Of a DNA stretch of 45,731 bases, positions 1 through 21,000 are shown piece after piece; positions within the stretch are counted from its first letter, which is position 1, and each line of letters starts with the position of its first letter. The stretch comes from Rhodothermales bacterium (lineage in GTDB: Bacteria > Bacteroidota > Rhodothermia > Rhodothermales > UBA10348), in NCBI GenBank assembly GCA_017859335.1, contig JAFMNH010000006.1, forward strand, positions 1 through 45,731, in the 5' to 3' direction. A program made the translations under genes and the position numbers. The notes beneath the pieces were generated by a model that saw nothing but the letters and a program-made list of their open reading frames with translations, had not been told where the DNA came from and did not search any database.

Positions 1-916
1 CGCGTCCGCCATGGTCGCGAATGGCTCTACAGCCCTTCAGGCCATCCATGGCGCATCCTGACAGGATGATGCCAACGGCTCCTTCCTGGAACGTCTCGGC
101 CACGCTCCGGAAAAGCGCATCAATGGAAGGGCGGCATCCGGATTCACGTCGGCCCCGATGTACATGCAGGTGGTGATGATAACCGGCCACCCGTATGCCC
201 ATGTGATGGCCACCCGGTGCGAGCCAGATTGTATCGGAATCGAGAAGGTCGTTGTTCGAGGCTTCGACCACGGGGCGTGCCGAGACCAAGGATAACCGCC
301 TGGCCAGCGCAGTGGTGAAAAACCGGGGCATATGCTGGGCTACAAGTACACAGGCCGGCGAAGGAGCGAGCCCTGCGAGGAGATCATTCAGTATGGGGAC
401 GGCGCCGCTGCAGCCACCGATGGCAATGGCCGTCGCCGCATCGCTCCGTTGACTGGTGTCCGCATGCAGCCCGTCACGACCTCGTGCCGGATGTGAGCGG
501 ACGTGATGGTGCCCTGCGGCCATACGCAGGATCGGTGGCAGGCGCTTTTGTAGATGGCCATCAGCAAAGAGGACATTCGAACCGTTTTCGGGCTTGGTCA
601 CAAATTCAGACAGGCCCTCCAGCAGCAAGTCGATGGTCAACTCGGCTCCCCCTTTGCTGCGCGATACCAAGGCGACCACAGGCAGCCCCGGTCGCAGCTC
701 GTGGATGCGCGAGAGCAAGTACGGATCGTTCTTTGATGTCTCCTCCATATCCAGCAGCAGTACATCCGGAGGGTCTTCGGCAATGTTTGCCAGCAGGTCT
801 ACACCCTCTGGTGACACAGCCTCACACACCATGTCTCCGGCTGCCTCAAGCACCGAAATGATTTTGTGACGGGCCAGTACATCTGCGTCGGATACAAGGA
901 CACGGATCGGTTTCAT
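1..916 (-). CDS. CheB-like protein-glutamate methylesterase with N-terminal receiver domain (3' end truncated by window edge)
   Basis: Manual translation from ATG at 916 (minus) stays open to the window edge: MKPIRVLVSDADVLARHKIISVLEAAGDMVCEAVSPEGVDLL...DVLLLDMEETSKND...FVTKPENGSN...AIAIGGCSGAVPILNDLLAGLAPSPACVLVAQHMPRFFTTALARRLS...IWLAPGGHHM...RPSIDALFRSVAETFQEGAVGIILSGCAMDGLKGCRAIRDHGG. Matches CheB landmarks (QHMP, APG.HM, RPSID.LF.SVA, ILxGxxxDG). Absent from the ORF track because it has no stop inside the window. Confidence 0.88.
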   Translation of the reverse strand, partial: MKPIRVLVSDADVLARHKIISVLEAAGDMVCEAVSPEGVDLLANIAEDPPDVLLLDMEETSKNDPYLLSRIHELRPGLPVVALVSRSKGGAELTIDLLLEGLSEFVTKPENGSNVLFADGHLQKRLPPILRMAAGHHHVRSHPARGRDGLHADTSQRSDAATAIAIGGCSGAVPILNDLLAGLAPSPACVLVAQHMPRFFTTALARRLSLVSARPVVEASNNDLLDSDTIWLAPGGHHMGIRVAGYHHHLHVHRGRRESGCRPSIDALFRSVAETFQEGAVGIILSGCAMDGLKGCRAIRDHGGR

Positions 917-1198: not shown

Positions 1199-1411
1199 AT
1201 GCACTCCGATACACATTTCGACAATCCCGACATCCGGGACGATCCGATGGAGTACCTTGGCGAAGGCGCCGATCCTGAGCAAAAAGAGGCCGCAGAGCAC
1301 TACGAACTGGAGGTCACGGACGAAAATGAGCCCATCAGCGAGGCGGACAGGCAAGTCGATGAGTGCTACTACGGCGATGAGTCGAATGACGTGGAGGAGC
1401 CGTCACACTGA
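1199..1411 (+). CDS. small highly acidic hypothetical protein (70 aa)
   Basis: ATG at 1199 preceded by AAGGAAGAG; protein MHSDTHFDNPDIRDDPMEYLGEGADPEQKEAAEHYELEVTDENEPISEADRQVDECYYGDESNDVEEPSH. It is the 3' part of track ORF 1097..1411. Convergent overlap with the next gene. Confidence 0.5.
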   Translation: MHSDTHFDNPDIRDDPMEYLGEGADPEQKEAAEHYELEVTDENEPISEADRQVDECYYGDESNDVEEPSH

Positions 1412-4400
1412 TCCGGCTGCGCTCCCATAACGATCTCGACACGCATCGTGGTCATTGTGCCGTCGCCACCCCCAGAAGGGAGGGGAAGGATGACCCGGTC
1501 TTTCTCGGTCGGCACCTGCTGGTCATTGACCGTGCACGATCGTATCCCCGTCTCTACCCCGTCCGGATTCCGTACGCTGATCTCTGCCGTGAGAGCGGTT
1601 TCAGGTACATGCCAAGTGATCGTATATCCCTCCCAGGTCTTGGATAGGCAGGGGCGGATGACCAGGCGCCCGCCCTCCTCCACGGAGAGGCCGAGAATGG
1701 ACTCCAGTACCAACCGATACATCCATCCCGCTGAGCCGGTATACCATGTCCAGCCGCCGCGACCACCATGCGGGGGTACGGCGTAGACATCTGCGGCCAG
1801 GGCGTAGGGCTCGACCTGATACCTGTTCTGTCCACCCGGCGTCTTGAGGTGATTGGAGGGAAGGAGCATGTCGATGAGTTCCCATGCCCGGGTTCCCCGC
1901 CCCAGGTGTGCAAAGGCCTGGATCACCCACATTGCAGCGTGGGTGTACTGCCCCCCGTTTTCCCGTACACCGGGCACATACCCTTTGATGTACCCGGGAT
2001 CGTGTTCCGTGCGGTCGAACGGGGGTGTCAGCAACCGGATCAGGCCGTTCTCCGGATCCACCAGGTGCTCCTCAACAGCATCGAGGGCCGTTTCCGCGCG
2101 GCTCCTCGGGGCAGCCTGTGTCAATATGGCCCATGCCTGGGACATGGCGTCAATTCGACACTCCATGGATTCTGCGGAGCCCAAGGGCGTCCCGTCATCA
2201 TAGAAAGCCCGCCTGTACCACCCGCCGTCCCATCCAGCTGTATTGACGGCCTGTTTCAATTCCCGGGCGGCATGTCGATAGGTTGCTGCCCGCTGCTCCT
2301 GACCGGCTGCATCGCATATCGGAATGAATCGATTCAGGATATCGTAGAGGAACAGTCCGAGCCATACACTCTCACCCCGCCCTGCATCTCCAACCCGGTC
2401 CATGCCGTCATTCCAGTCTCCCGTACCGATGAGCGGCAGGGCATGGACGCCGACGGGAAGGGAACGATCGATTGCGCGAAAACAGTGCTCCCGGACCGAT
2501 GCCTGTTCGTGGGACGGGGTGGGGGTGAAGTAGCGTTCGTGTTCCTGATCGGTAAGCGGTAACCCCTCGAGGAAGGGCACCACTTCCTCGAGAAGATCAT
2601 CGTCTCCCGTCCAGCGCAGGTATTCGGAAGTAATCCAGGGTAGCCACAGCAGGTCATCCGAGATCCGGGTTCGAACCCCTCGCCCGGAGGGAGGATGCCA
2701 CCAATGCTGCACATCGCCCTCGACAAATTGCCGCGCTGCGTGGATAAGGATCTGCCGTCGCGTCCATTCCGGGCCGAGGGCCAACAGGGCTGCCGCGTCC
2801 TGGAGCTGATCCCTGAAACCGATGGCGCCGCCCGACTGGTAGAAAGCGGTCCGCCCGAGGAGACGGCAGGCTACGGTCTGGTAGATCAGCCATCCATTCA
2901 CGACCGCATTGAGGGCCTCTGAGGGTGTCCGGATGACCAAACGGGAACAGAGTGAGGCCCATCTGTCCTTTGCCGCTTCAAGCGTGGCTTCCAGGGCGCC
3001 TTCGTTGGACAGTTCCTGGATCAATGTCACGAATTCTTGCTCAGAATCCGTTTGCCCCATGATCATGCTGCAGGTGGTTGATGCATGGGCTGGCAGGGTC
3101 AGTTCCACCATGAACGCCGCACAGGGCTCTCTACCGGCCCCGGTCCAACCATCCAGGCGGTGTGTGGAGGTGATGGCTGCAGGCGCTGAGAGATGGCCGT
3201 TACGTCCCAGGAATGCGCCCCGGTCCGCCGTCAAGCTCGGAGTGTGAGCCAGGGATCCGGGCAGCAGGGCAGCGCCTGCCGTCAGCTGGGCGAACTCATT
3301 GTTGTATGCGTTCCTTGCTACAATGGCATCCGGTTCTTCCAGGCGCCGGGTCACGACGAAGGGAGCGCTTCGTTGCGCCGTCACACCAAGTACCAGTCGG
3401 TTGTAGAAGACGACATGCAGATGGCGTGGGGCGTCTGACGTGTTGATCAGGCGCAGGCGGGTGATCTTGATCGGTTTTTCGGGGGCAACAAACCGGGTCG
3501 TTTCCTCCCGCATGCCGGCTGCCTCATGCAGGTACGTCGTGTAGCCGAAGCCGTGTCGCACTTCATACGATCCCCCGTCCGGTGCGGGGCCCGGCATGGG
3601 CGACCAGAAATCCTTCCTCCGGGCATCACGCAGATAGATGGCTTCCTCAACCGGGTCGGATGTGGCATCGTTGGACCACGGTGTCAGTCTGTTTTCGCGA
3701 CTGTTCCGACTCCAGGTAACACCACCGCCCCGCTCAGTGGCAACGAACCCGAGCGTATCGTTGGCAATGACGTTGACCCACGGCATGGGCGGCAGTTGGG
3801 GGCCCTGTGGGCCGCTCGGCAGGTTGATGACGAACTCCTGGTCGGCTGTGTTGAATTCGCCCAGGACATCCTGGGAGCCGTTGGGTTTTGTCGGCCTGTC
3901 TTCCTGCTCTCCGGGCGTACGCCTGTCCCCTGTGCGGGGTTGAAACACGATGGTATTCGTCGCGGCGCCCAGGTCATCTTTCCATTCGATGTCTCCCCTG
4001 ATGACGACGGCTGCTACGGTGTGTAGCAGGGTCAGATGGGTTTCGGGAATGTCGTCAAGGCGCCTGAGGGACACGGTTCCCTTGGTCGCTTCCACGATCC
4101 GACCCGGGACTTCGACGGCGTGTTGGACCAGATCTCCCAGATCATCGAGATAGGATGCCTCGGATTCGTACACGAACAGGATGTCCGTGTTCAGACCCCT
4201 GTACTGCCAAAAGGCATGTGCGCGTGCAAGCAGCCTGACCGTATCCAGGTGGGTATCGTCGGGAATATGCGCAACGACGAGGGGTCGATCCCCTGAAATA
4301 CCATAGGCCCACAGCGCAGGCTGTTGGGCGCGGTTGCGTTCCAGCACTGAGGCCGGAGCTCGAAGTCCGGGATGCCCGAAAAGCAGCGCGCCGCCTATCC

Positions 4401-7400
4401 GTTGGGCAGTCAATGCCTGCTCAGGACGGAGATCAAAATTATTCAGCTGGATGATTCCGTAGGCCTCGGCCAGATGGAAGGCACGTTCGACAGCCTGCGG
4501 GTTGTCATACTGGTCGGCCAGGTATTCGGCCTTGCTTCGCGAGCGTGCCGCACCGGTCGTGAACGTAACCTTGGTGCGTTCCCCTGGTCCTATCACGACC
4601 GTGCATGACAGACTCAAGCAGGGATCCAGGACACTGCCCAGTGCTCCATGTATCCCGTTTGCCCCAGAGGCCTGTTGATGGGCTGGCGGGCAGTCCGGAC
4701 ACAGCCGGATGGGGTGTGCCGGGGTACGCCCCCTGCCCAGAAAGGCTTTCCGATCCGTCTCATAGCGCACAGGGTCCGCGGTGTCAGTCTGATCATGGTC
4801 TATGAGGCCGTGAATCATCCAGAGTTCGTCCTCTTCGCTTCGACGCGGTCGGCGATGCGCCAGCAGCGTCTGGTGTTCATCCAGATATTCCGTTTGAACG
4901 AAGAGATTGTGGAAGGCAGGATGGTCTTCATAGGAGCGTCTCTCCAGCATGGACACGCCGGTGAAACTCGTTATCTCAAGACGCCGCTCCTCCTTGGAAT
5001 AGTTGGTAAGCGTGACCGTGCGCAACTCCATGTCATCCAGAGGAGAGATGCATACCTCCGTAAACGTTTCTATCCAGTTGTCCACACGGGCCGATTCGAA
5101 TTTGTTGATGTGCAACCAGGCATCATAACGGTCCGCCTCCTGCTGCACGGGCTGATGTCCTGTTGACCAGAGGGCGTTGCTACAGGTGTCGCGAATGTAG
5201 ATGAAGAGGCCATCGCCGTCGGCAATCCTGTCTGGTGTGAAACGGGTCAGCTGAACGTCCCCAAGCGCTGTATATCCTGTTCCGGCTGCCGTAATACACG
5301 TGTGCAGTCGGCCATTGGTCAGGAAAAGGGCGTGGGGCGTGTCTGCATCGACGCCCGCACGCGGAATATGGGTGACGGCTGTCTCGACGTGGGAAGTATC
5401 CCTCGGCTCCCGCTGCGCAGAGACAGCATGCACGGTTGTCAATTCGATGACATCAGGCAGTTTTTCCTGTAGAAGCAGCTCGACCGAACGCACGAGGGGG
5501 CTGGCATGGAAACGGCGTTGCATCCCATTACCGAAAAGAAGATTGCAGATGGCCAGCAAACCCATCCCCTGATGGTGCGTCATGTAGGAATAGACGATAG
5601 CCGGGATACCGCCAGCACCTGTCCGTTCGCGGGTGTAATCCACGGCCTCATAGTAACCCATCGAGCCAAGCAGCCCCGCCTTGCTAAGTACCCTCATGTT
5701 CTCGAGGGCGCTTTCTGGATCCACAGCCAGCGAAAGCAACGTTGCATACGGCGCAACGACATAGTCCTGGGCAAGCCCTCGCTTCAACCCGAGTTCGGGT
5801 ACGCCGAAGGCGCGGTACTGATAGTCCATGTCCAGATTCAGCATGCCGTATCCGCTTTCCGACACACCCCAAGGCAGTTGATGCTCACGTCCCCGATGAA
5901 TCTGGGCCTTGACGGCATGGGTATAGGTCTCATCGAGCAGGGAATGTTCATACCGCTTCATGAACAACAGGGGCATCAGGTACTCGAACATGGTGCCTCC
6001 CCAGGACACCAGAGCACGGCCACTGCCAACCTCAGTCAAGCGACGGCTCAGATGGAACCAGTGTCGGGCGGGCAGGTCTCCTCGGGCAATGGCCAGAAAC
6101 GAGGCCACGCGGGCCTCGCTGGCAAAGAGGTCATAGGTTGCATGATCGCGTGCCATGCGGTCCTCATTGAAGCCGATGGTCAGCAGGGAGCGGTCGGCAT
6201 CAAAGAGAAAGCCGAACTCCATCGGTCGGATAAGGTCATCACACAGCCCGATCAGCACCTGCGTCGACTCGGTCAACCCGTCCATGATGCCTTTCGGGGC
6301 GTCCCCGAAGGCGCGCAGGTGGCGCGCCGGCTGCCGGCTCCAGTAGGCCAGGTCTCCGGACACATCGTCCTCTTGCAGTGGCATCAGGGCGCTTTCAAGC
6401 TGATCGGCCCGCACCAGCCATTGCTCACGCTCAAGACCCCTGGCCTCCCCGGAAATCGTACGCATGAGTTCATCGATCTGGGTTGTGATTTCCTCCAGAA
6501 GTGGCGTTCCCAAGCGGTCTGCACGTGTTTCTACCTCCTCCTTGAGCACCTCCAGTATGTCTGTAAGGCCCTCCTCGGGGTGCGAGATGGGTCCGGGTGG
6601 TCCGCCGGCTATGCTCATCTCAATCAGACCCTGCCGGAGCACGATCAGTGAGGCCAGCAGATTTCCTGAGTCCACGGTCGAAACATAGCGGGGACGCAGG
6701 ACGGATGCGTTCCTCGTGTCGTACCAGTTATAGAAATGGCCCCTGTAGCGATCGAGTCGTTGCATGGATTCGAGCATATGGCCAAGCATGGACACGGCAC
6801 GCTGGTGCGTCAGGTATCCGAAATCAACGGCCGACAGCACGGCCAACAAGGCCAGTCCCATGTTGGTCGGCGACGTTCTGTGTGCGATGCCCCTCGACGG
6901 CTTGACCTGCAGATTGTCCGGTGGTAGCCAGGGTTCAGGGGGTCCGATGGTACGATCGAAGTAGGCCCATGTCCGGCATGCCGTCATTCTCAGTAATCGG
7001 AGATCGGCTTCGGGCAAGACGGTTGTCCGTGTGCGATGTGGCCGACCCAGAGCCCAGGTCAGGACGGGAGCAGCCAGCCAGGCCATCATGAAGGGGAGGG
7101 TCACGATCGGCATCCCCCAGCCGGTCATCAGGGAGGTGGCGCCCCATATCAAGGGTAGAGCCGTATTGGGCCACATACGGCCAAGTTCAACCGGAATCCC
7201 CGATGGGAGCCCGATCTCAGCCTCCCAAGCCGTTTTCCACTCCAGCCGCCGCTTGCGTGAAACAAGACTCCTCCAGAGGGTCCGCAGGATGGCGTCGAGG
7301 GCCACACGAGCCATATCCGGTAAAACAGCCGCCGTGAGGGCCGCGCGAGCCAGATTCATGCGCGTCTCCAGGCCGAAGGATGACAGCTTCCGCCTGCCCG

Positions 7401-9999
7401 GTCCGCGCGTCGGTCGGGTCAGCAGGACAGTGGTGGTTCCCAGAAGCACCGGCAGGGCTAGTAACGCCATACCCAGAAGTGTCCAGTAAAGGGCCAGGCC
7501 CGGCAAAGCAACCCAACCAAAGAGCAGAAAGATGAGCATGGCCGGGGCGGAGAGGGATCTTCGCAGGTTATCCAGCATCTTCCAACGCCCCATGGCCGGA
7601 ACCCGAAGATCAGATCGTCCCCGTATCCAGGGAAGCAGCTGCCAGTCCCCCCGAATCCATCGATGCAGCCTGCTTACATAGGCAGCGTAGGTTGATGGAT
7701 AGCTGTCAAAGAGTTCCACATCGGTCACGAGCGCTGTCCTCAGAAACGAGCCTTCGAGCAGATCGTGGGACAACACCGCATTTTCGGGGAATGCCCGGTC
7801 GAGCAGATCCCGGAAGACCTCTGCGTGGTAGAGTCCTTTACCGGTGTAAATACCCTCTCCGAACAGATCCTGATAGACGTCGGAAACAGCTGTCGTATAG
7901 GGATCAAGACCGACATGACCCGAAAAGAGCCGCGCAAACATCGTTTTTCCGGCTTCTTCCGGGACAATGGAGATACGTGGCTGCAACACAGCATGACCGC
8001 GGTGGATGGCACGTTTCCCTGTGCGTTTGTCCGTACCAACCACCGGAATGTTGAACGGGTGGGCAGCTGTTCGTGCCAGATCCCGGGCCGCCCCGCTCGG
8101 CAGGCGCGTGTCTGCATCGAGGGTAATGACATACGGAATGGGGCCTGAGCGGACAAAGGCCTCAAATCCCCCTTCGATCAGGGTAAAGGACGAGGGCGCC
8201 CCTGGATCTGCCAGCAGCCGGTTGAACTCTTCCAGTTTACCCCGCTTTCGCTCCCACTCCATGAATACACCCTCCGATGCATTCCATTGCCGGGCGCGGT
8301 GAAGCAGGAAAAACATGTTTCCATGCCCATCGTCATACCGCTTGTTGACGTCCCGTACGGCCGTCACGGCAGCCTCGAGGATCTCCGCATCACCCGGCAT
8401 ATCGGAGGCAGGGGCATCCGGTAAACCGGTCAACAAGGCAAAGCGAACGTTGGGGTCAGCGTTTGCCACAGCCCTGATCTCCAACTGTTCGACTTGCTGC
8501 CGGGCATGCTCTGCGGAGGCAAGGAGTGTGGGAACGACCACCATGGTACGATGATCATCCGGAATACCCTCCGCAAATGCCATACGAGGCAGGCTTCGTG
8601 GTGGAAGCACCAAGGAAAGGATCCAGTTCACGAGTGCTGTGGTCAGATCCCAAGCCGGTAGAGCGGCCACCATGGCCGCCGCGGCGACAAGCCAGGGCCA
8701 TGGCGTCGTGGTCAGCACCATCCACATGGGCAGGGCGAGCACGGAGAGAAAGATCAACAGGCCCATACTGAAGTAGACGGGAGCGGGGTGCCGCTCAGTC
8801 CATCGCCGGGCGCGAACGCCAAGCGGGGGGCTATATCCGATGAGGTCTTCAAGGCGCTGTCGACAGGGCTCGAAAAGAGTCCACCCCACGTGTTGGTCCT
8901 TGGGCACGTGCGTGCAGCTAGCACCATTCTCGGCCAGTTGCAACAGTTGGCGTGCTACATCGAATTCGGATACATCGGAGTATTCGGCAAGATGCTCCAC
9001 CTGTGAGCGGTACCGATCTCTTGTTCTCGAATCCATGTGTGGGTACACCCCTGACGGGTCGAGGCGAAGTGTTCGCTCCACCACCGAGAGGTCTTCCACG
9101 AAATGCGTCCAATCCGTCTCTGATGTCGAGCGCAGTGACGTGATGGCATTGGCAATACTGACCTGCCGTTCGGATTCCTCTTTCGTGTAGGCTTCCAGCA
9201 CCTGCTCGGCTGATGTATGGCGCTCGGTGAACGCCTCATTGAACCACTCTCGCTCCTTTTGTGACAATCCCCGTGCCGTATCCAGGGATCGGGAAACCTG
9301 CGCAAGGAATAAGTCCACCTCGAAGAGCGGATGCTTGGTTATGGCTTCCAGGCCACGTCCGAAAGACGATCCATCCGTCGGGACGGGCGATTGGTCTGCC
9401 TCTTTTTCTTCCTCCACTATGCGCCTCGTCACCTGCTCGACCGCATCCCGGATCTCATGCGATGTCAGGATTTCCCGCGAGAGACCCTCGAGGCGTTCGA
9501 TCATGACGATCCGGATCATGATGGGAATGGCCCAAAGTTCGCACAGGGCCAGGAAGTCCACGTCCTGATAGGCGTTGACAAAGCTGCCGAGCACGGCCTC
9601 GTCAATGACATTGTCTGTACTATCTGCCAGATCCGAGACGATCTGGAACACGCGGGGAAAGCCGCTCAGGGGTCCTGAACTCAGCTTGGGAAGTTTTCGA
9701 TAGAAACCCTTGGTAAGGTGCTCCCGGATGCGCAGGAACTGCTCGCGGATGATGTAATGATTATCCAGGATCCAGTCTGCTGCAGGGAGCATGGTCTCTC
9801 CACTGCGCGCTGCTCCAAGCAATACATCATACACCCGGTCCAGGTCATCGCGTGATGCATCCAGGTGGTCTGTGAGTGGCTTCGATGGGTGGAAGGCAAG
9901 TGCCCCTGGTGTGACGTGTGCCTCGGCCAGCAGCCTGGCGTGTGAGGCCCGCTGCTCAGCGGTGAGTGGTCTGGATTCATGGCGTCTCATGGCTCTCAT
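1369..9999 (-). CDS. ndvB: Cyclic beta-1,2-glucan synthase-like protein (NdvB/ChvB type: GT84 + glycoamylase-like + GH94 domains), 2876 aa
   Basis: Single very long ORF with GT motif VITLDADTRLP, RLHRWIRGDWQLLPW, membrane segments, GH94 motifs GGAIGFRDQLQDAAALL, GTGDWNDGMDRVG and PGVRENGGQYTHAAMW. AGGAGGTGA lies just upstream of the start. Confidence 0.93.
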   Translation of the reverse strand: MRAMRRHESRPLTAEQRASHARLLAEAHVTPGALAFHPSKPLTDHLDASRDDLDRVYDVLLGAARSGETMLPAADWILDNHYIIREQFLRIREHLTKGFYRKLPKLSSGPLSGFPRVFQIVSDLADSTDNVIDEAVLGSFVNAYQDVDFLALCELWAIPIMIRIVMIERLEGLSREILTSHEIRDAVEQVTRRIVEEEKEADQSPVPTDGSSFGRGLEAITKHPLFEVDLFLAQVSRSLDTARGLSQKEREWFNEAFTERHTSAEQVLEAYTKEESERQVSIANAITSLRSTSETDWTHFVEDLSVVERTLRLDPSGVYPHMDSRTRDRYRSQVEHLAEYSDVSEFDVARQLLQLAENGASCTHVPKDQHVGWTLFEPCRQRLEDLIGYSPPLGVRARRWTERHPAPVYFSMGLLIFLSVLALPMWMVLTTTPWPWLVAAAAMVAALPAWDLTTALVNWILSLVLPPRSLPRMAFAEGIPDDHRTMVVVPTLLASAEHARQQVEQLEIRAVANADPNVRFALLTGLPDAPASDMPGDAEILEAAVTAVRDVNKRYDDGHGNMFFLLHRARQWNASEGVFMEWERKRGKLEEFNRLLADPGAPSSFTLIEGGFEAFVRSGPIPYVITLDADTRLPSGAARDLARTAAHPFNIPVVGTDKRTGKRAIHRGHAVLQPRISIVPEEAGKTMFARLFSGHVGLDPYTTAVSDVYQDLFGEGIYTGKGLYHAEVFRDLLDRAFPENAVLSHDLLEGSFLRTALVTDVELFDSYPSTYAAYVSRLHRWIRGDWQLLPWIRGRSDLRVPAMGRWKMLDNLRRSLSAPAMLIFLLFGWVALPGLALYWTLLGMALLALPVLLGTTTVLLTRPTRGPGRRKLSSFGLETRMNLARAALTAAVLPDMARVALDAILRTLWRSLVSRKRRLEWKTAWEAEIGLPSGIPVELGRMWPNTALPLIWGATSLMTGWGMPIVTLPFMMAWLAAPVLTWALGRPHRTRTTVLPEADLRLLRMTACRTWAYFDRTIGPPEPWLPPDNLQVKPSRGIAHRTSPTNMGLALLAVLSAVDFGYLTHQRAVSMLGHMLESMQRLDRYRGHFYNWYDTRNASVLRPRYVSTVDSGNLLASLIVLRQGLIEMSIAGGPPGPISHPEEGLTDILEVLKEEVETRADRLGTPLLEEITTQIDELMRTISGEARGLEREQWLVRADQLESALMPLQEDDVSGDLAYWSRQPARHLRAFGDAPKGIMDGLTESTQVLIGLCDDLIRPMEFGFLFDADRSLLTIGFNEDRMARDHATYDLFASEARVASFLAIARGDLPARHWFHLSRRLTEVGSGRALVSWGGTMFEYLMPLLFMKRYEHSLLDETYTHAVKAQIHRGREHQLPWGVSESGYGMLNLDMDYQYRAFGVPELGLKRGLAQDYVVAPYATLLSLAVDPESALENMRVLSKAGLLGSMGYYEAVDYTRERTGAGGIPAIVYSYMTHHQGMGLLAICNLLFGNGMQRRFHASPLVRSVELLLQEKLPDVIELTTVHAVSAQREPRDTSHVETAVTHIPRAGVDADTPHALFLTNGRLHTCITAAGTGYTALGDVQLTRFTPDRIADGDGLFIYIRDTCSNALWSTGHQPVQQEADRYDAWLHINKFESARVDNWIETFTEVCISPLDDMELRTVTLTNYSKEERRLEITSFTGVSMLERRSYEDHPAFHNLFVQTEYLDEHQTLLAHRRPRRSEEDELWMIHGLIDHDQTDTADPVRYETDRKAFLGRGRTPAHPIRLCPDCPPAHQQASGANGIHGALGSVLDPCLSLSCTVVIGPGERTKVTFTTGAARSRSKAEYLADQYDNPQAVERAFHLAEAYGIIQLNNFDLRPEQALTAQRIGGALLFGHPGLRAPASVLERNRAQQPALWAYGISGDRPLVVAHIPDDTHLDTVRLLARAHAFWQYRGLNTDILFVYESEASYLDDLGDLVQHAVEVPGRIVEATKGTVSLRRLDDIPETHLTLLHTVAAVVIRGDIEWKDDLGAATNTIVFQPRTGDRRTPGEQEDRPTKPNGSQDVLGEFNTADQEFVINLPSGPQGPQLPPMPWVNVIANDTLGFVATERGGGVTWSRNSRENRLTPWSNDATSDPVEEAIYLRDARRKDFWSPMPGPAPDGGSYEVRHGFGYTTYLHEAAGMREETTRFVAPEKPIKITRLRLINTSDAPRHLHVVFYNRLVLGVTAQRSAPFVVTRRLEEPDAIVARNAYNNEFAQLTAGAALLPGSLAHTPSLTADRGAFLGRNGHLSAPAAITSTHRLDGWTGAGREPCAAFMVELTLPAHASTTCSMIMGQTDSEQEFVTLIQELSNEGALEATLEAAKDRWASLCSRLVIRTPSEALNAVVNGWLIYQTVACRLLGRTAFYQSGGAIGFRDQLQDAAALLALGPEWTRRQILIHAARQFVEGDVQHWWHPPSGRGVRTRISDDLLWLPWITSEYLRWTGDDDLLEEVVPFLEGLPLTDQEHERYFTPTPSHEQASVREHCFRAIDRSLPVGVHALPLIGTGDWNDGMDRVGDAGRGESVWLGLFLYDILNRFIPICDAAGQEQRAATYRHAARELKQAVNTAGWDGGWYRRAFYDDGTPLGSAESMECRIDAMSQAWAILTQAAPRSRAETALDAVEEHLVDPENGLIRLLTPPFDRTEHDPGYIKGYVPGVRENGGQYTHAAMWVIQAFAHLGRGTRAWELIDMLLPSNHLKTPGGQNRYQVEPYALAADVYAVPPHGGRGGWTWYTGSAGWMYRLVLESILGLSVEEGGRLVIRPCLSKTWEGYTITWHVPETALTAEISVRNPDGVETGIRSCTVNDQQVPTEKDRVILPLPSGGGDGTMTTMRVEIVMGAQPDQCDGSSTSFDSSP

Positions 10000-10104: not shown

Positions 10105-10758
10105 TCAGGGCCGCTGCTCCACCCAAAGCGTGGCTCGTTGCAGTAAGGCTGTGGACGTCTCGAGCGAGAGCTTCTGCTTGATACGTCCTCGATGCGATTC
10201 CACGGTTTTCGGACTGATGAGCAATGCGTCGGCAATGTCCTGGATGGACATCCCCTCGCCGATCAATTCGAAGACTTCCAATTCCCGGTCACTGAGCTGG
10301 TCGATCTCGGATGATGCCTGGTCGGGACGACCTTTCTTCATCTTTTGGAACTGGCTCAGAATCCGTGTACTCATCTGATCACTGAGGTAAAACCCTCCTC
10401 GCAGAACACGGCGTACCGCCTCGACGATCGTGCGGTCGACCTCGGACTTCATTACATATCCGCGTGCTCCCGCATGAATGGCCCGTTCGCTGTAAATGGT
10501 CTCATCGTGTGTCGAGACAACCAGCGTAAGCAGGTCCGGCATTTCGGCAAGCAGGTTCTTGATGAGTACGATGCCGTTCATGCCACCAAGTGAGATATCC
10601 ACAATCATCAGGTCAGGACGATCCCTTCGGGCAATATCCATGGCTTCCAGAGCGGAGCCTGCTTCGCAGCAGACACTCAAGTCTGGTTCTGATTCGATGA
10701 GAAGCCGATACCCCATGCGCATGACAGGGTGATCATCCACGATCATGATGCGTTTCAT
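10105..10758 (-). CDS. NarL/FixJ-family response regulator (REC + LuxR-type HTH)
   Basis: MKRIMIVDDHPVMRMGYRLLIESEPDLSVCCEAGSALEAM...DLMIVDISLGGMNG; C-terminal LSDRELEVFELIGEGMSIQDIADALLISPKTVESHRGRIKQKL. Confidence 0.95.
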   Translation of the reverse strand: MKRIMIVDDHPVMRMGYRLLIESEPDLSVCCEAGSALEAMDIARRDRPDLMIVDISLGGMNGIVLIKNLLAEMPDLLTLVVSTHDETIYSERAIHAGARGYVMKSEVDRTIVEAVRRVLRGGFYLSDQMSTRILSQFQKMKKGRPDQASSEIDQLSDRELEVFELIGEGMSIQDIADALLISPKTVESHRGRIKQKLSLETSTALLQRATLWVEQRP

Positions 10759-10762
10759 TGTG

Positions 10763-12100
10763 TCACCTGTTCAGTGGTAAACGGCATACGACGGAGGTAC
10801 CACCCTCCATCACCGGGTTGATGGACAGAGAGGCATGAATGAGGCCAGCCCTGTATTTCATGATCTGAATTCCCATTCCGGTGCCGGAAAAGGCTGCATC
10901 CGGCAGACCGTCTCCAAAGTCCCTGACCCGCAGGGTGAGCGTATCATCTGCGAGATTCAAGGTTACCTCCAAGCGCTCCGTGCCTGAATGCTTCATGGCG
11001 TTCATGACAGCCTCGTGGGCAATCCGGTACAGCTCTGAGGCAATGGAGGGCTCCAGGGGAGGCAGTTCATGTGGGCAATCGAGGTAGCACTCGATAGTGG
11101 CCATCCTTCCTACGTGGTGCATCAGGTCGCGCAGGGCCTCTTCCACCCCCCAGGCCTCCAGATTGACAGGGCTCAGTCCCTGGGCCAGTGCGCGTGCCCG
11201 TTCCGCCCCGGAGCGCGCCTGATCCACCATGTATTCGATCGTGCCAGCAGGAATCCGGTAATCAGGGTCCGCGCTCCGTTGCTTCAACAATCCCCGGCCC
11301 ATGAGAGCAAGACCGCTGAACATGGAAGCCAGGTGGTCGTGGATATCCTGCCCTATGTGCTGACGCTCTTCTTCGCTGATGCGAAGCACATCCTGCTCAA
11401 GATTCCTGCGCCGGCTGATATTGTGCACCACGATGATCCATGACCCTTCCGGTCCCCACCTGACACGGCGTACCGTGATCTCGGCCGGGAAAGTGCTACC
11501 GTCCGCGTGGTGACATGCCATCTCACAGGAGAGAGGTCCGGACTGCTCGTCGACCGTTTCCAACGCGCTCATGTCGCAGGAATGATCGGGGTCGGAATTG
11601 GAGAGGAGTCCTTTTATGAGGACCCCCGTAATTGCCTTTGAAGGACGTCCAAACATGATGCCTGCATTCGAATTGGCAGCCCTGATCAGACCGTTTTCTG
11701 CCACCAGGAGGACGCCGTCGGGAATACACTCAAGAATGAGTCGGGCCTGGTCGAAAAACCGCGTAGACTGATCTATTGGGTGCACATAGTGCACAAGCTC
11801 CTGGGCGCGTATGAGGACGGACTCCTCGTCCGTGTTCTGTATCGGTAACACGCGGATCTCGAATGGATCTCCGTTACTCTTGATGAGACATGACTCCAGT
11901 TCGAGGCTCTGTGTGATATGGGCAGACTTCCCGTTTCCTTGCAGGTGTGACCCGGATGGGCCATGACTGATATGGCCGTCATGGTCCTTTTTGTGGATAT
12001 TCCGGTCATGGGTGTCAACCGACTCATTCTGAGGCCTGTGCTGACTCTTGAAGAACAAGGTGAAAGGCATCTTGACTACACAATTGATAAAAAAAATCAA
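10763..12100 (-). CDS. PAS-domain sensor histidine kinase (HisKA_3/NarX-like), start codon uncertain
   Basis: PAS region (IPDGVLLVAENGLIRAANSNAGIMFGR), H-box EEERQHIGQDIHDHLASMFSGLALM, ATPase core RIAHEAVMNAMKHSGTERLEV...VRDFGDGLPDAAFSGTGMGIQIMKYRAGLI. Immediately upstream of the response regulator. Confidence 0.9.
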   Translation of the reverse strand: MIFFINCVVKMPFTLFFKSQHRPQNESVDTHDRNIHKKDHDGHISHGPSGSHLQGNGKSAHITQSLELESCLIKSNGDPFEIRVLPIQNTDEESVLIRAQELVHYVHPIDQSTRFFDQARLILECIPDGVLLVAENGLIRAANSNAGIMFGRPSKAITGVLIKGLLSNSDPDHSCDMSALETVDEQSGPLSCEMACHHADGSTFPAEITVRRVRWGPEGSWIIVVHNISRRRNLEQDVLRISEEERQHIGQDIHDHLASMFSGLALMGRGLLKQRSADPDYRIPAGTIEYMVDQARSGAERARALAQGLSPVNLEAWGVEEALRDLMHHVGRMATIECYLDCPHELPPLEPSIASELYRIAHEAVMNAMKHSGTERLEVTLNLADDTLTLRVRDFGDGLPDAAFSGTGMGIQIMKYRAGLIHASLSINPVMEGGTSVVCRLPLNR

Positions 12101-12878: not shown

Positions 12879-14069
12879 TCAGTACCGAAAGAGGGCCGTG
12901 GCAGGTACATGGCCGGGAAGCACCTCATCTCCGACAATGTAGACATCGCCACCATTGTCCAGCGTTCGAGCCAGGATACGATCCAGCAGCTGCGTCTCAT
13001 CTGCGCTCTGGATGGGAGTCAGGCTTTTCTGTCCATCAGAGTCGGGACGCCCCGTAATGTCATCTTCGGATCGGACGAAGAGTGTCTTTATCCTGCGTTC
13101 CTCTGCAGCGTCCGCCATTCGTTTCAATACCGTCGAAACCCGGTTTGAGGCATGTCCCCTCACGATACTCAGCTCCTCGAGGGCCCGCCTCTTCGAGCGT
13201 TCCTGATACGCAGACAAGAGGGGCCAGACCTGATCGTGCAGATCCGAGAGGGACAGATCCCTTGGATTACGCATTAGCGCTTCCTCCAAAAGGAAAGGAT
13301 ACTGATTCACCTCCCGATACTGCCCGACGAGGGTAGGTGGTCCAACCAGGACAAGGGGCGCCTGCGAGGATCCGATGCTATGCCGGACCCCGTTTTCAAG
13401 CTGTCTCAGGTATTCCATGGTGCGCATTTTGGTCAGCGCGCGATCAGCGGCCTCACCGTGCCCATGAAAGACGACAGAGCCCCCGTTGCTGAAAGGAGTT
13501 TTTGGCGTACCCGTGTGTATTTGCAGGTAGGGCTGTTGGACGTCGTACCGCGTTACGTCGGTCAGACTGGTTGGTGTGTTTGCCAGGTCCCGTACCATCA
13601 TCTGGTAGCGCGAGCCCTCAAAGAGGCGCGTGCTGTTGCTACTGAGTGTCAGGACAAAAAAGTGGCCGTTGGTATCCATGACACGGATGAGTGGAGCGAC
13701 ATGGAATGTGTCCCCCACACTGAGGAATTCCGCTACAGTGATGGGCAATCGGTACCAATAGGTTTCCCCAGGAGCCATGAACACAGCGAGTGTCTCTGCC
13801 TGATGGCGCCAGAATTCGGCGCTGTTTCCCAACAACCACTGCGCCTCTGACAGGACGTCACCGGTTGCAACCTCCGGTGCCACGGCAGCCAGCTCCTCGG
13901 CAGCCGTGGCCAAGAGATTCCTGAAACGAAGGCGATCGTGTCGCTCTTCCTGGCGCACACGGTGGGTAGGCATGAAAATTGAAACACATGGGCCGCTTCG
14001 TGTGCGGCACAGCATGGAGATATCAGCGGGAGAGATGAGATCCATCTCGGAGTCGAGCAGATTTTCCAT
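12879..14069 (-). CDS. baeRF-like (bacterial archaeo-eukaryotic release factor fold) protein
   Basis: N-terminal PCVSIFMPTHRVRQEERHDRLRFRNLLATAAEEL and C-terminal ADAAEERRIKTLFVRSEDDITG...DRILARTLDNGGDVYIVGDEVLPGHVPATALFRY, characteristic of baeRF-type proteins. Family subtype not assignable by eye. Confidence 0.65.
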   Translation of the reverse strand: MENLLDSEMDLISPADISMLCRTRSGPCVSIFMPTHRVRQEERHDRLRFRNLLATAAEELAAVAPEVATGDVLSEAQWLLGNSAEFWRHQAETLAVFMAPGETYWYRLPITVAEFLSVGDTFHVAPLIRVMDTNGHFFVLTLSSNSTRLFEGSRYQMMVRDLANTPTSLTDVTRYDVQQPYLQIHTGTPKTPFSNGGSVVFHGHGEAADRALTKMRTMEYLRQLENGVRHSIGSSQAPLVLVGPPTLVGQYREVNQYPFLLEEALMRNPRDLSLSDLHDQVWPLLSAYQERSKRRALEELSIVRGHASNRVSTVLKRMADAAEERRIKTLFVRSEDDITGRPDSDGQKSLTPIQSADETQLLDRILARTLDNGGDVYIVGDEVLPGHVPATALFRY

Positions 14070-14204: not shown

Positions 14205-17200
14205 CTATTTCAGGTACGTCAGGGTTTTGGTCAGGCTCTGCGTATCCGTCATCAGTCGATAGACGTAGGTGCCACTGGGCAGGTCCTCGGCATGGAAGGT
14301 TACCGTGTGTCGGCCGGCTGCCTGCATGCCATCGACAAGCACGGCAACCTCCGCGCCAACCATGTCAAAGACGGTAAGCCGGACGTAGCTGCTCTCGGGC
14401 AGATCGAATCCGATGGTAGTCTCCGGATTGAACGGGTTCGGGTAGTTCTGGCCGAGTGACACATACATGGGAAGCTCGGATGCCTCTCCCACTCCCGTCA
14501 GGGCTCCCCGGATCATGCTGCTCGTCGTAATCTGCGACATGATCTGCTCCTGACCGTCCGAGACCATGACCCGAAAGTAGACCGTTGTGGCTTCATTCAG
14601 GTCAACTCCCATATTGGTCAGTGCAGCTGCCAGGTCGCCTTGGCGGTAGCGGAACATCGTTTGCTGTCCCAGATCCTCTTCGTACACCATGTTCTGTGCT
14701 TCAAACATCACAGACGTCGAAATCTGCAGGGTGTAGCCAAGCTCATCCCCGTCAATATCCGTGGCATCTGGCCACTGGATCTCGAGCTCGAGATCCGGAT
14801 CCCCGACGAGCGTGATTTGCTCTCCATCGGCAGGAGATACCAGCCAATCACTGTCGGGGAAGTAGGGCGGATCATTGACGGCTGCAACCTCTACAGCAAC
14901 CTCTGCCGATGCCGTCCACACACCGTCCGTGACGGTGTAGGAGAAGGTGTCCGTACCGAAGAAGTTCGGCGCAGGCGTGTAGGTCAGCGCGCCGTCTACC
15001 AGGAGTGCCACCTGTCCATTGGAGGGCTGTGTGAAGGCATGGACGGAGAGGGCGTCACCGTCCGAGTCCGTGTCGTTCGACAATACGTCAATCCGAAGGG
15101 GTACATCCTCGTCGGTTGCCGCCGCATCGGCCATCGCCGCAGGCGATACGCCTACAGGAAGGACTGTGACGGTTACAGTCGCCTCATCCATGGATGTGCC
15201 ATCTCCGATAGTGTAGGAGAAGAGATCTTCGCCCATGAATCGGGCCTCTGGGACGTAGCGGACCATACCGTCTCCGAGGAACGTTGCCCTTCCCGATGAC
15301 GGTTGCACCAGTTGTACGAGATGAAACGCCCCATCCGGGTCGTAATCATTGGCAAAAATGTCGATGTCAATGGCATCGCCAGCCAGCGTTTCGACCGTGT
15401 CGTCCCGGGCCTGCGGTGGATCATCGGTTGGCTGGACCGTCAGGGAAACGTCTGCAGGAGAGGACACCGCCTGCCCGTCGGTCACGCTGTAGGAGAAGAG
15501 ATCCGATCCATTGTAATCGGTATCCGGGGTGTACCGCAGCGTCCCGTCTCCGAGGTCCTCGACGGTGCCGTGGGTGGCTTCAGACACACTGGCCAGCATC
15601 AGGGGGTCCCCATCCACGTCGTAATCATTGTCCAGAACCCGGATGATCACGGGGGTATCTTCATCCGTCGTGACGGCGTCGCTCAGGGCCACAGGCGTCT
15701 GGTTGCTGCGCAGGATGGGTGCACCGTCATCGACCAGGATGCCGTTGGCCTGCAGATCATCATCGCCTCGTGCACCGTCGACATAGATCAGTCGGATCAT
15801 GCCCGGTTCGATGATGGCCCCTGTCAGGCCATCGTACCAGAAGTCGTACCAGTGGGGGGCGGTAGCATCTTCGGTCGGACCGTAGCGCATGAACCCTGTC
15901 ACATCCACCCCCTCGGGAACGATCAGGGTGGTCTCGAACAGGCCGCCCGGCTCGAGGCCTTCTACCGTGAAGGAGAAGAATCCAAGTGGGAACGACCCTT
16001 CAGGGGCCGTGGATGGGCTCGGGTTGTCCGTGGATTGAACCCTGGTGAGTGTCAGGTTGTCTGGAACCTCCAATGTCAGGTAGGCACCAGCATTGGGGCC
16101 ATAAGCGATGGGGAAGGAAGCAACTGTTGTCTGCTCAGCATCCGGAATGCCATCGTTGTTGCCATCGCCGCCGTTGGGCGCGCCCGCCTCGATGTCATCA
16201 TCCACACCATCGCCATCAGGTCCCAGCCCAAGGACCGTTACCGTTATGTTTCCCATATCCGTAGCTCCGAAAGCATCGGCTACGGTGTACTCGAAGACAT
16301 CCTCGCCCTCGAACGATGCGTAGGACGTGTAGGAGACAGCTCCATCAGCTGTGATGGAAACGGTGCCGCCTGTTGGATCGGTCAGGGAAACGAGACGGAG
16401 ATCATCGTCGTTGGCGTCGCTGTCGTTGGCCAAGACATCGATCACGATCGCGTCGCCGGCAAAGAGCCGAGCCGTGTCATCGGTCGCAACCGGGGCTGCA
16501 TTCTGTACAAGAACGCTGACCTGCCCCTCTGCGACATCCAGGCCATCGGAAATTCGATACGTGAACGTATCCGTACCGATGTAAGCTGTCTGCGGCGTGT
16601 ACAGAACGCGTCCATCTGGTGTGATCTGGGTCGAGCCGTGCTCGGCGGTCGACACATGCTGCAGTGTCAGGACGTCACCGTCCGGGTCACTGTCATTGGC
16701 CAGGACGTCGATTTCCACGGCAACGCCCCGAGGCGTCTGCACGTTATCCGGTACAGCGATAGGCACTCCGTTCGGCTTGACCGAAATGGAGAAGGTCTGC
16801 AGTCCGGAGACACCGAAGATGTCGGTTGCACTCAGCTTCACATCGTGAACCCCAACGGATCCTTCGCCCGGCAGCCCGTAGAGCAGTCCGGTGCCGTCCC
16901 CATTGTCCTGGAAGGAAGCCCACACGGGTAGTGTCGGCGCGCTGAGCGTCAGTTGGTCCCCGTCACTGTCTACGGCCACAACAGGATATTCATAGCGGAT
17001 GCCTGCCCTTGCGACGGTAACAGGGCTGCTGGTGAATTGGGGCGCGGCATTGACGACCACCGCCGCGCCATCGGTGACCGTGGCGTCAACGCCTAGTCGG
17101 TCGAAGGCAAACGAGGTCACGTCGAGCGCCGACGTGCCGGCCTCGGCAAGGGTGCCTTTGAGGTAAAGAAGGGTTCCGTCTCCCTCCAGATAGGCGTCTT

Positions 17201-17912
17201 CCGCATCCTGAACAAAAATGGACTGCGCCGTGGGATAGGAAACCTGCGGCGACCGACCAGCGGACAGCGTGCCAGCTGTTGAAATTCCGGAGACGGAGAT
17301 GACGGAGCTGTCCCAGGAGAGACCGAAGGTATATCCCGCTACTTCGAGTCCCGAAAGATCATCTACCCTGACAGGAATCAGCACGAATGCGCCTGGGCGA
17401 TCGCTTACATCGCCAACCGTAACACCGATCTCAGCAATCTGATCGGTGGCCGAGGCGGACCCGGCTCCCAACGTTGCTGATACCTCTGGGTTGTCAAAGG
17501 CGAACTCGTTCCAGGCAAGCTCTGTTGTTCCGGCGTCCCCGAACATGCCATTCAATCGAAGCAGCGTCCCCGACCCGGACAGAGGCGATGCGCCAGCGCC
17601 AACGACACGGAATACGCCTCGAGAAGGGCTGTTGGACATCGTGGTCAGATCGTCAGAGAGCGTCCCCGACGTGGCAATGCCCGTGAATTCGATCACATCG
17701 GGATCGTAGCTGATTTCGAGCTGGTAGCCCGAGACGTTACGGCCCGTCATATCCCCGACAACGATATCGAGTGTGACGGGAGAACCCACCAGACCGTCTA
17801 TATCCGGCAGGGAAACAGTGATTTGTGCAGAAACCGATCCTGCCGTCCCCAGGGCGAACATCAAGGCGATGCAGGCAAGTCCGGGCAGGTTGAAAAAGCG
17901 ATTGGCAAACAT
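14205..17912 (-). CDS. Secreted multidomain protein: two cohesin-like domains, tandem Ig/cadherin-like (VCBS/Big) repeats, choice-of-anchor-U-like region, C-terminal T9SS-type sorting domain
   Basis: Start moved to ATG 17912 (MFANRFFNLPGLACIALMFALGTAGSVSA signal peptide, upstream AAAGAGG). The track N-terminus to 18026 runs through an intergenic hairpin. Repeats such as AVTTDEDTPVIIRVLDNDYDVDGDPLMLASVSEATHGTVEDLGDGTLRYTPDTDYNGSDLFSYSVTDG; end LGQNYPNPFNPETTIGFDLPES...LPSGTYVYRLMTDTQSLTKTLTYLK. Confidence 0.88.
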   Translation of the reverse strand: MFANRFFNLPGLACIALMFALGTAGSVSAQITVSLPDIDGLVGSPVTLDIVVGDMTGRNVSGYQLEISYDPDVIEFTGIATSGTLSDDLTTMSNSPSRGVFRVVGAGASPLSGSGTLLRLNGMFGDAGTTELAWNEFAFDNPEVSATLGAGSASATDQIAEIGVTVGDVSDRPGAFVLIPVRVDDLSGLEVAGYTFGLSWDSSVISVSGISTAGTLSAGRSPQVSYPTAQSIFVQDAEDAYLEGDGTLLYLKGTLAEAGTSALDVTSFAFDRLGVDATVTDGAAVVVNAAPQFTSSPVTVARAGIRYEYPVVAVDSDGDQLTLSAPTLPVWASFQDNGDGTGLLYGLPGEGSVGVHDVKLSATDIFGVSGLQTFSISVKPNGVPIAVPDNVQTPRGVAVEIDVLANDSDPDGDVLTLQHVSTAEHGSTQITPDGRVLYTPQTAYIGTDTFTYRISDGLDVAEGQVSVLVQNAAPVATDDTARLFAGDAIVIDVLANDSDANDDDLRLVSLTDPTGGTVSITADGAVSYTSYASFEGEDVFEYTVADAFGATDMGNITVTVLGLGPDGDGVDDDIEAGAPNGGDGNNDGIPDAEQTTVASFPIAYGPNAGAYLTLEVPDNLTLTRVQSTDNPSPSTAPEGSFPLGFFSFTVEGLEPGGLFETTLIVPEGVDVTGFMRYGPTEDATAPHWYDFWYDGLTGAIIEPGMIRLIYVDGARGDDDLQANGILVDDGAPILRSNQTPVALSDAVTTDEDTPVIIRVLDNDYDVDGDPLMLASVSEATHGTVEDLGDGTLRYTPDTDYNGSDLFSYSVTDGQAVSSPADVSLTVQPTDDPPQARDDTVETLAGDAIDIDIFANDYDPDGAFHLVQLVQPSSGRATFLGDGMVRYVPEARFMGEDLFSYTIGDGTSMDEATVTVTVLPVGVSPAAMADAAATDEDVPLRIDVLSNDTDSDGDALSVHAFTQPSNGQVALLVDGALTYTPAPNFFGTDTFSYTVTDGVWTASAEVAVEVAAVNDPPYFPDSDWLVSPADGEQITLVGDPDLELEIQWPDATDIDGDELGYTLQISTSVMFEAQNMVYEEDLGQQTMFRYRQGDLAAALTNMGVDLNEATTVYFRVMVSDGQEQIMSQITTSSMIRGALTGVGEASELPMYVSLGQNYPNPFNPETTIGFDLPESSYVRLTVFDMVGAEVAVLVDGMQAAGRHTVTFHAEDLPSGTYVYRLMTDTQSLTKTLTYLK
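17050..17825 (-). other. Two tandem cohesin-like domains within the 14205..17912 CDS (approximate limits)
   Basis: ITVSLPDIDGLVGSPVTLDIVVGDMTGRNVSGYQLEISYDPDVIEFTGIATSGTLSDD... and IGVTVGDVSDRPGAFVLIPVRVDDLSGLEVAGYTFGLSWDSSVISVSGISTAGTLSAG..., both with the cohesin pattern (G..V.IPV.V.D..G..V.GY...L.YD..VI...G....GTLS). Confidence 0.7.
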
Positions 17913-17956
17913 GGTAATACCTCTTTTGGGGATTTTGTCATCTGAGCTTCGTCGAA

Positions 17957-18007
17957 GTGTGCCATCCCGGAGGCGCTCCACCGGAGCGGATCTCCGGGAT
18001 GGCACAC
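17957..18007 (-). terminator. Long nested hairpin between the dockerin-bearing and cohesin-bearing genes
   Basis: GTGTGCCATCCCGGAG (17957-17972) pairs perfectly with CTCCGGGATGGCACAC (17992-18007); inner CGCTCC-ACC-GGAGCG stem (17974-17988). Just downstream of the 18034 stop on the minus strand. Confidence 0.75.
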
Positions 18008-18033
18008 GTGTGTCGACGTTGGGCACCGAAGCC

Positions 18034-21000
18034 CTACTTGACCAGCATCATGGTGCCGGTCATGACCTTGTCTTCCGTTACGACCTGGTAGATGTAGACG
18101 CCGGTTGGCCAGTCTCCTGCCGCCACGGTGACGTCGTGGACGCCTGCTGTCTGTCTGCCCGAGAAAAGGGTTGTGACTTTCTGGCCGAGCACGTTGTAGA
18201 CGTCAATCCGAACATCCACGGTCGCAGGCAATGCGTAGCGTATCGTGGTTGAGGGATTGAAGGGGTTGGGATAATTACCTTCCAGCCGGTAGGAGGTTGG
18301 AAGCGGATCATCCGATACCGCTTCGATGGGGCGCATGGCGCCCTCTGCCGTCTGCAGGGTACCCTTGATCGAGTGGATACCTTCTCCGGTGACTTTCAGG
18401 ATCAGGCGCCCGAATTCTCCCGATTCCACCGGTTCAAGACCGACGGCTGCCATCATCACCCGGCCGTCCTGGTCGTTGCGCATGACCATCCATTGTTCCG
18501 GCAGGTCCAGGTCCATGGATGCCACCGCTACGTGCGATGCATCAAAGGTCAGGTCCAGCTCGAACCCGGTGGTGGATCCGGCCACGAGAGGAATGATGAC
18601 TTCGTGCGCCTCGGCGTCATCCAGGATGGGGCTGCGACTTTCGCTGCTGTTCTTGGCAGCCACGGCCGGCTGCTCGGCAACGCACGCCTCGTCTACAGGG
18701 AAGCATTCGATGGATCGAACGATGTAGCGCAAGAGGGTGACGACGTCCGAAACGTTGACGCTGCCTTCTCCGGTTACATCGGCTGCCACCGAGATCTCCG
18801 CATCGATCTGCACGATGTAGCGCAGCATGGTGACGGCGTCAGCCACATTGACCGATTCGTCCGCATTGGCGTCTCCTGTCCGTCGGCCGGTCGTCACGCG
18901 CAGCCGGAAGGTTGTCTGCGCAGTTTCCGAGCCGTCCGTGACGATCAGTGTCACGTCGGAGAATCCGTGTCTGTTGGGCTCAGGATTCAGTGTGACGCTT
19001 CGATTACGCCCCATCGTTCCCTCGAGAAGGATACCAGAGACGGGGAGCAGGTTCTCGTTCGAAGAGGTGGCCGAGACCGATACCTTCCCGGGAGTAACCG
19101 TGAACGCAATGGGTCCGACGGGTACGCCGACGCCTGTTTCCTGGTCAGCGATGGCACTGATGCCCAACTCATCCGTGTGCGGCGCGGAGAGCAGGACCGT
19201 GGCAACATCGGATTGAAGTACACCATCACTGGCCACATACGTGAAGAGCAACTCTTCTACATGCTCTACCGAAGGCGTATACCGGAACGAGCCGTCCGCC
19301 TCAAGCACGAGTTCGCCAGCGGCGGGTGGTGCAACGAGCTCTGCCGTAAGCGGGTCGCCATCCGGATCCCAGTCATTTGCGAGCACGCCATTCTCAGCGT
19401 TGATCACGAGGACCTCGAGATCGACCAGCTCATAGACGTCGTCCACGGCAACCGGTGTGCCGGCTGCGACCACGGTAACCCGGAATGTCGTAGCACTACT
19501 TTCCAGGCCATCTGATACCGTGATCGTAACGTTCGCTGAGCCGGTTTCCCCGCTGACGGTGTAGAGTGTAGCGGTACGGCTTGCATCGCTTCCTTCGATC
19601 ACGATCCCGACCGGGGGAAGCAAGGTTGGGTTGTCTGACTCGGCCTGGATGTGCAGGGCGTTCAGGTCGGTATCCGCATCGGCCACTGTGAAGGGCACCA
19701 CGTACGGTCCGGAGCCGGCGTGCACCGTGCGATCCGCAACGGACGTGATGTCAGGCGCGTTCATACTCTGAACCTCCAGGTCAAACTGCATCTGATCGCC
19801 ACCGGAGGCGGTAGCAATCGTGATCGTTGCGAGACCCATTTCCCCAGCTGTTGTCTGCAGCGTTACGGTCCGCTGACGGCCCTTACCACCCAGTGTGATG
19901 GATGTATTGGGTACGAGCGCCTGGTTGCTTGAATTGGCAATCAAACTGGCATGACCCGGGCGGACGGTAAAGGAAAGGGGACCTACCGTTTCGCCGGATT
20001 TGGCCATCTGGTCGGGAATTTGACTGATGGCTGCGGCGTGTTCCAGTGCCAGGGTTACCGTGGCTGTTTCGGAAGTCAGAGACCCGTCAAAAGCCTGATA
20101 GGTAAATGTCAGCGGTTCCTCTTCTTCTCCGCCCTCGGGAGGAGAAGACGACAGTACACCAAGGTCGGCCTGCGGCAACACATCGGTCTCCGAGGGGAGG
20201 GCATCGTGGGAGTGCTCATCAACCGGCACGTAGGTGAACGAGCCGTCTGGATTCAACGTCAGGGTGCCCGTGGCCGGTGGGTCGACCAGGATAGCCGTCA
20301 ACGCGTCACCATTCGGATCGGAGTCGTTGGCAAGTACGCCACTGGCGGCGTCGACGACCAACGTCTCTCCCTCGGCAGCCGTGTAGATATCATCTACGGC
20401 TACAGGGGGCTGGTTGGCCGCACCTACCGTCAGATTGAAGGTCTCGCTGGCTGTATGACCATCCTCATCCTCGACGGTAATGGTAACCTGAGCAGAGCCG
20501 AAGGCATCAGCGGCCGGAGTCAGCGTGATGGTTCTGTCCGTCCCCGAGCCCCCCAGGTCAATGTTCGCATCCGGTAGCAGCGTCTGATTCGACGAAACAG
20601 CGGTTACGGCCAGATTCTCCGCAGCTGTTACAGCATCCGACACCGTAAATGAGACAGGACCAACTGGCGTGTTTTCCAGTGTTTCCTGATCAGATATCGT
20701 GCTGATCGTCGGTGCATCGACGGCAGTTACCGTCACCATGAAGGTCTCGCTCGCCGAGAGTTCGCCATCAGATACCGTGACCGTTACAAGGGCCGTACCT
20801 GCAGCATTCGGGGCGGGTGTCAAGGTAATGGTTCGCTCGGCCGTCGATCCACCCAGCGTTATTGCGGCATCAGGAATGACACCCTGATTGTCAGAGACCG
20901 CCGTGACGATCAGATCCGCCGAGGCCGTCTCCACGTCGGCCACGAGGAAGGTGATCGGACCCACAGCCACATCCTCCGCTGTCGTCACATCTGCAATCTC

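Follow-up and report, generated by a model that had tools for sequence, protein, structure and literature searches.

CheB is textbook chemotaxis machinery, a protein-glutamate methylesterase/deamidase. A CheB-like gene with a cysteine where the catalytic serine belongs, lying at the edge of a Rhodothermales contig next to stress-type genes, raises the question of what this protein does there and whether it still serves chemotaxis at all. We addressed it using the whole 45,731-nucleotide stretch of DNA (the window), the rest of the assembly and related genomes.

The truncated gene and its missing end

Translation of positions 1–916 of the window on the minus strand gave 305 amino acids containing SDAD, LLLDMEE, VTKPE, IGGCSGA, QHMP and GCAMDG. 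Since the window is an entire contig (C107), the frame runs off its end. A family search of the assembly found the missing C-terminus on contig C116, where it lies at the contig's end. The ends of C107 and C116 overlap exactly by 15 bases, a stretch that occurs once in each contig, and join in frame into a 357-residue product with a normal CheB C-terminus. The AnmK gene of C116 is 60–65% identical to AnmK of genus relatives, so this contig fits the query organism. An earlier note on this DNA had described an edge-truncated CheB-like frame starting at 916 and suggested retrieving flanking sequence; translation, Pfam and alignment to 1A2O confirmed the former, and the latter yielded the complete protein, here called Cys-CheB. 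The genes discussed below are:

2–916, minus strand: Cys-CheB (receiver and CheB methylesterase domain), residues 1–305 of 357, cut by the contig end
C116 (locus L003), minus strand, from the high-coordinate end down to base 11300: remainder of Cys-CheB
1369–9999, minus strand: NdvB (glucan synthase), conserved upstream partner of Cys-CheB
10105–10758, minus strand: LuxR/NarL-type response regulator, upstream of NdvB
10763–12100, minus strand: PAS-HisKA_3 histidine kinase, same strand as NdvB

Domains, active site and receiver

Pfam identified a receiver (Response_reg, PF00072, 2e-8) followed by a CheB methylesterase domain (CheB_methylest, PF01339, 1.3e-36), the latter scoring 126.4 bits against the curated 24-bit threshold for this domain superfamily. 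A phmmer comparison with 1A2O placed Cys169 opposite the enteric Ser164, QHMP opposite the enteric QHMP (His190) and CAMDG opposite MGNDG (Asp286). The Ser-His-Asp triad that defines the PF01339 superfamily thus reads Cys-His-Asp; counting the query, 25 of the 30 clade sequences have this Cys. The relevant positions, assigned by alignment and for the triad also by phmmer, are:

410–412, minus strand: TGC codon of Cys169, nucleophile position (enteric Ser164)
332–334, minus strand: His195, triad (enteric His190)
44–46, minus strand: Asp291, triad (enteric Asp286), with Cys288 nearby where the canonical Met sits
887–889, minus strand: Asp10, sole residue left of the receiver acidic pair; the canonical Asp11 is Ala in the query
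749–751, minus strand: Asp56, phospho-acceptor position, kept in the query and lost in 21 of 29 clade members
593–595, minus strand: receiver Lys108 (CheB Lys109)
527–568, minus strand: clade-specific motif FADGHLQKRLPPIL in helix 5/linker, with H121 and R125 in 29 of 29 relatives and K124 in 28

These assignments bear out the earlier reading of the letters, which had put Cys at the aligned nucleophile in IGGCSGA, retained the triad His and Asp in QHMP and GCAMDG, and noted a receiver with its phospho-acceptor D and its K in which the usual DD pair had become SDAD.

Two NCBIfam models for CheB, NF001965 (cut-off 293 bits) and NF009206 (342 bits), were used to compare the family with a canonical protein. 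Three full-length clade members scored 229–263 and 178–209 bits, below both cut-offs, while a canonical control (L077) reached 406 and 333 bits and passed the first only; the query gave 177 and 135 bits, but its sequence is truncated. The AlphaFold model of a Balneolaceae clade member (mean pLDDT 86.9) had 6ymz, 1a2o, 1chd and 3sft as its top Foldseek matches, and its predicted fold is that of full-length CheB (TM 0.80 to 6ymz and 0.81 to 1a2o).

The cysteine is conserved in a distinct clade

The closest relatives identified are 28–40% identical to the query and belong to a different family within its class; some of them have identical counterparts in named Balneolaceae records (Aliifodinibius, Fodinibius, Rhodohalobacter and MAGs). 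A GTDB scan covered two peptide patterns and the best 80 loci, so further Cys lineages may exist elsewhere. A Cys-CheB orthologue was not found in the query's own genus or family. We aligned 121 distinct homologues and built a maximum-likelihood tree from a set including 29 Balneolaceae clade proteins and 48 canonical CheBs. The query and the 29 relatives formed one clade with 100/100 support, which persisted (SH-aLRT 99) with three active-site stretches masked. Apart from the query, the clade is drawn from a single family, and the query's exact place in it is uncertain owing to its long end branch.

In the 29 relatives the nucleophile column holds Cys 24 times, Ser four times and Gly once, whereas canonical CheBs from many phyla carry Ser; this applies to all 48 used for the tree and to the remaining canonical proteins in the alignment. 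The triad His is present in every row, and the triad Asp in every row where that end is present. The cysteine is thus not peculiar to this assembly. The other outcome that the earlier note had named as fatal to its reading, the following Ser as the true nucleophile, was rejected as well: the Ser170 column is S, T, M, L or I within the clade. The Ser members are nested twice, L059 and L035 beside the Cys-bearing L079, and L044 and L062 beside the Gly-bearing L048. The column requires four changes on the tree, which is simply explained if Cys arose from Ser once, Ser came back twice and Gly appeared once.

The surroundings of the triad have changed too. All clade members have a different residue (G, C, N, H or Y) at the enteric Met283 position, which is 288 here, with Cys288 in only 5 of 29 relatives, and the Thr165 position is S, M, L or I in many members; such pocket changes could mean altered specificity or lost activity. 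In the receiver, most members no longer have Asp11 (three carry Glu, L048 still has Asp), and the phospho-acceptor is kept in 8 of 29 relatives. Newly conserved residues include, besides the three of the helix 5/linker motif, H253, R254 and R257 in the catalytic domain.

Two proteins stand apart. The protein of G114 (L048/L229) combines Gly at the nucleophile with PHLP in place of QHMP, still has NdvB adjacent, and is likely a natural pseudoenzyme judging by these substitutions. Genome G303 encodes a second, divergent Cys-bearing CheB paralogue (L072) in addition to its NdvB-linked copy. A search for relatives in viral contigs confirmed none, and PADLOC matched no defence-system family.

Coupling to a glucan synthase

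In nearly all Balneolaceae loci with visible flanks, the Cys-CheB gene lies downstream of NdvB and co-directional with it; the exceptions are G454, with genes in between, and G323, with NdvB about 12 kb away. Most of these loci continue 23–181 bases after Cys-CheB with a P-type cation ATPase or tandem UspA genes on the same strand. Across 92 Balneolaceae genomes, Cys-CheB occurred in 29 of 32 with NdvB (28 at E ≤ 1e-34, plus G454) and in none of 60 without it (Fisher p about 7e-21, a value that ignores relatedness). Three NdvB-positive genomes lack it: contig ends interrupt G436 and G458, and G365 appears to be a true exception.

The picture is looser around the query, and two observations there count against our preferred explanation given below: the gap between Cys-CheB and NdvB is about 450 bases, so the two genes need not be co-transcribed, and in the query's order NdvB-like genes occur in 19 of 114 genomes while Cys-CheB occurs in the query only. 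Other CheB matches in this order with readable motifs carry Ser. Within the query's family (27 genomes), the query alone has Cys-CheB, NdvB and PEP synthase, so the cluster was either transferred in or retained here alone. In the NdvB tree, the query's synthase branched between two groups, that of its order and that of Balneolaceae, with a support of only 80. A search of NdvB for a Cys-CheB-specific insertion that might mark a target site found no segment separating CheB-associated from CheB-free synthases, and a literature search found no paper linking CheB with cyclic glucan. The coupling between the genes indicates that they share a pathway but does not identify NdvB as the substrate.

Several further features of these loci were recorded. 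A small DUF5335 gene directly precedes NdvB in Balneolaceae loci L154, L155, L158–L161, L164, L165, L169, L227 and L229. In L226 (G450) NdvB is apparently split into frames of 863 and 2068 amino acids, through a frameshift or a real split. In the window, a bacterial archaeo-eukaryotic release-factor-like protein (baeRF family 7; 12879–14069, minus strand) adjoins the two-component genes. Two adjacent giant secreted repeat proteins of 1273 and 2189 amino acids (14205–24603, minus strand) carry Big_9/cadherin repeats and Por secretion tails. Cohesin domains occur in one of them and a Dockerin domain in the other, so the two might form a cohesin-dockerin pair that does not belong to a cellulosome.

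Chemotaxis partners

The earlier remark that no other chemotaxis gene was in view extends to the genome: searches of the query assembly (96.6% complete) found no CheR (PF01739), MCPsignal (PF00015) or second CheB. Both CheR and MCP were likewise missing from three Balneolaceae genomes that carry Cys-CheB (G134, G425 and G114). The general substrate of the family therefore has to be something other than an MCP methyl ester made by CheR, and Cys-CheB is not a chemotaxis gene. Several Balneolaceae genomes encode a second CheB match of more canonical range besides the clade member.

Proposed function and alternative explanations

From these data we infer, with about even confidence, that a CheB-type hydrolase has been repurposed and now depends on Cys; it may be a deamidase and would regulate an envelope or stress function encoded alongside it, possibly that of the glucan synthase. 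Ser164 would have changed to Cys once, in the ancestor of a non-chemotactic CheB-derived family, giving a Cys-His-Asp triad. In a cytosolic partner, a glutaminyl amide or similar acyl group would be attacked by the Cys thiolate and the acid released, so that the protein would act as a deamidase or hydrolase rather than as an eraser of CheR methyl marks. Through this reaction it would control how active an envelope or stress protein encoded with it is, the glucan synthase being the simplest candidate. The receiver may have largely lost phospho-control in the clade and, together with the conserved linker motif, probably forms a docking module. The parts of this scheme differ in strength: Cys169 is probably the nucleophile, deamidase-like chemistry is possible and somewhat short of an even bet, and NdvB as the target is a tentative suggestion. 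Enteric CheB binds the receptor pentapeptide at the receiver/linker junction (PMC8609364), which makes a changed docking partner in the clade plausible.

Four other explanations were considered. The TGC codon is one base from a Ser codon and the gene spans a contig break, both of which would suit a sequencing or assembly error, but the same Cys in 24 relatives, from isolates as well as MAGs, refutes it and leaves its chance negligible. An ordinary chemotaxis CheB with an incidental active-site substitution would account for the CheB domain order and fold over the whole length; the missing MCP, CheR and other CheB in the query genome, the second, more canonical-range CheB in several Balneolaceae genomes, and the full-length clade scores of 229–263 bits against a cut-off of 293 (control 406) make it very improbable.

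A stronger alternative is that the CheB domain has lost catalysis and the protein instead binds or scaffolds the glucan synthase or some other product of the cluster, making contact through its receiver and linker. It would agree with the degenerate phospho-site in most members, the universal replacement at Met283, the one member with Gly at the nucleophile, and the newly conserved H121, K124, R125, H253, R254 and R257. However, the nucleophile column is Cys or Ser only in 29 of 30 clade proteins, and His and Asp are kept; as neutral decay would be expected to strike these as well, we consider a pseudoenzyme unlikely. Cys169 might instead, or in addition, be an oxidation-sensitive switch that links the glucan/PEP synthase cluster to oxidative or hypoxic stress. 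The stress-type neighbours (UspA, P-type ATPase, PEP synthase) and the query's Cys288 close to the triad would fit, but four clade members carry Ser and are incapable of such switching, and few relatives share Cys288; we regard this as improbable. Of the three options that the earlier note had left side by side (Cys-dependent, inactive or repurposed), the Cys-dependent and repurposed ones gain from the clade-wide Cys with only Ser or Gly as alternates, the intact His and Asp, and the setting outside chemotaxis, while the inactive one is not favoured, as the clade retains the partner residues of the triad throughout.

Under the Cys-dependent hydrolase reading, a conserved Cys swap, a giant neighbour that makes sugar rings and possibly no receptors together point to a repurposed enzyme with altered chemistry. 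Cys-CheB would then be a candidate for post-translational control of cyclic beta-1,2-glucan synthases; how these enzymes are regulated is, to our knowledge, poorly understood. It would also caution against reading chemotaxis into every gene annotated "CheB".

Comparison with known systems

A triad survey found the N-delta histidine configuration in only three serine enzymes, CheB among them, and states that the N-epsilon rule applies to serine triads but not to cysteine ones (PMC9825947), which makes a Cys swap in CheB chemically interesting. The passage from Ser to Cys and back in such an exception enzyme is a natural experiment on the triad-geometry rule. We found no paper on a Cys mutant of CheB in the open-access literature.

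With CheB itself (PF00072 + PF01339; 1A2O, 6YMZ), the clade shares the receiver-linker-CheB order, a predicted fold at TM of about 0.8, and the triad His and Asp. It differs in the Cys for Ser164, the lost Met283 position, a mostly broken acidic pair, a mostly lost phospho-Asp and a linker motif of its own, as well as in sub-cut-off NCBIfam scores, its NdvB clusters and hosts that may lack CheR and MCP. Canonical CheBs of Balneolaceae (e.g., L053) come from the same organism family and have the same domain order, but carry STGG and TGMGxDG motifs and branch separately in the tree. CheD-type and other Cys-His glutamine deamidases perform Cys-based amide hydrolysis and would resemble Cys-CheB in this respect if its proposed activity is right; their fold is unrelated, and the likeness is one of analogy only.
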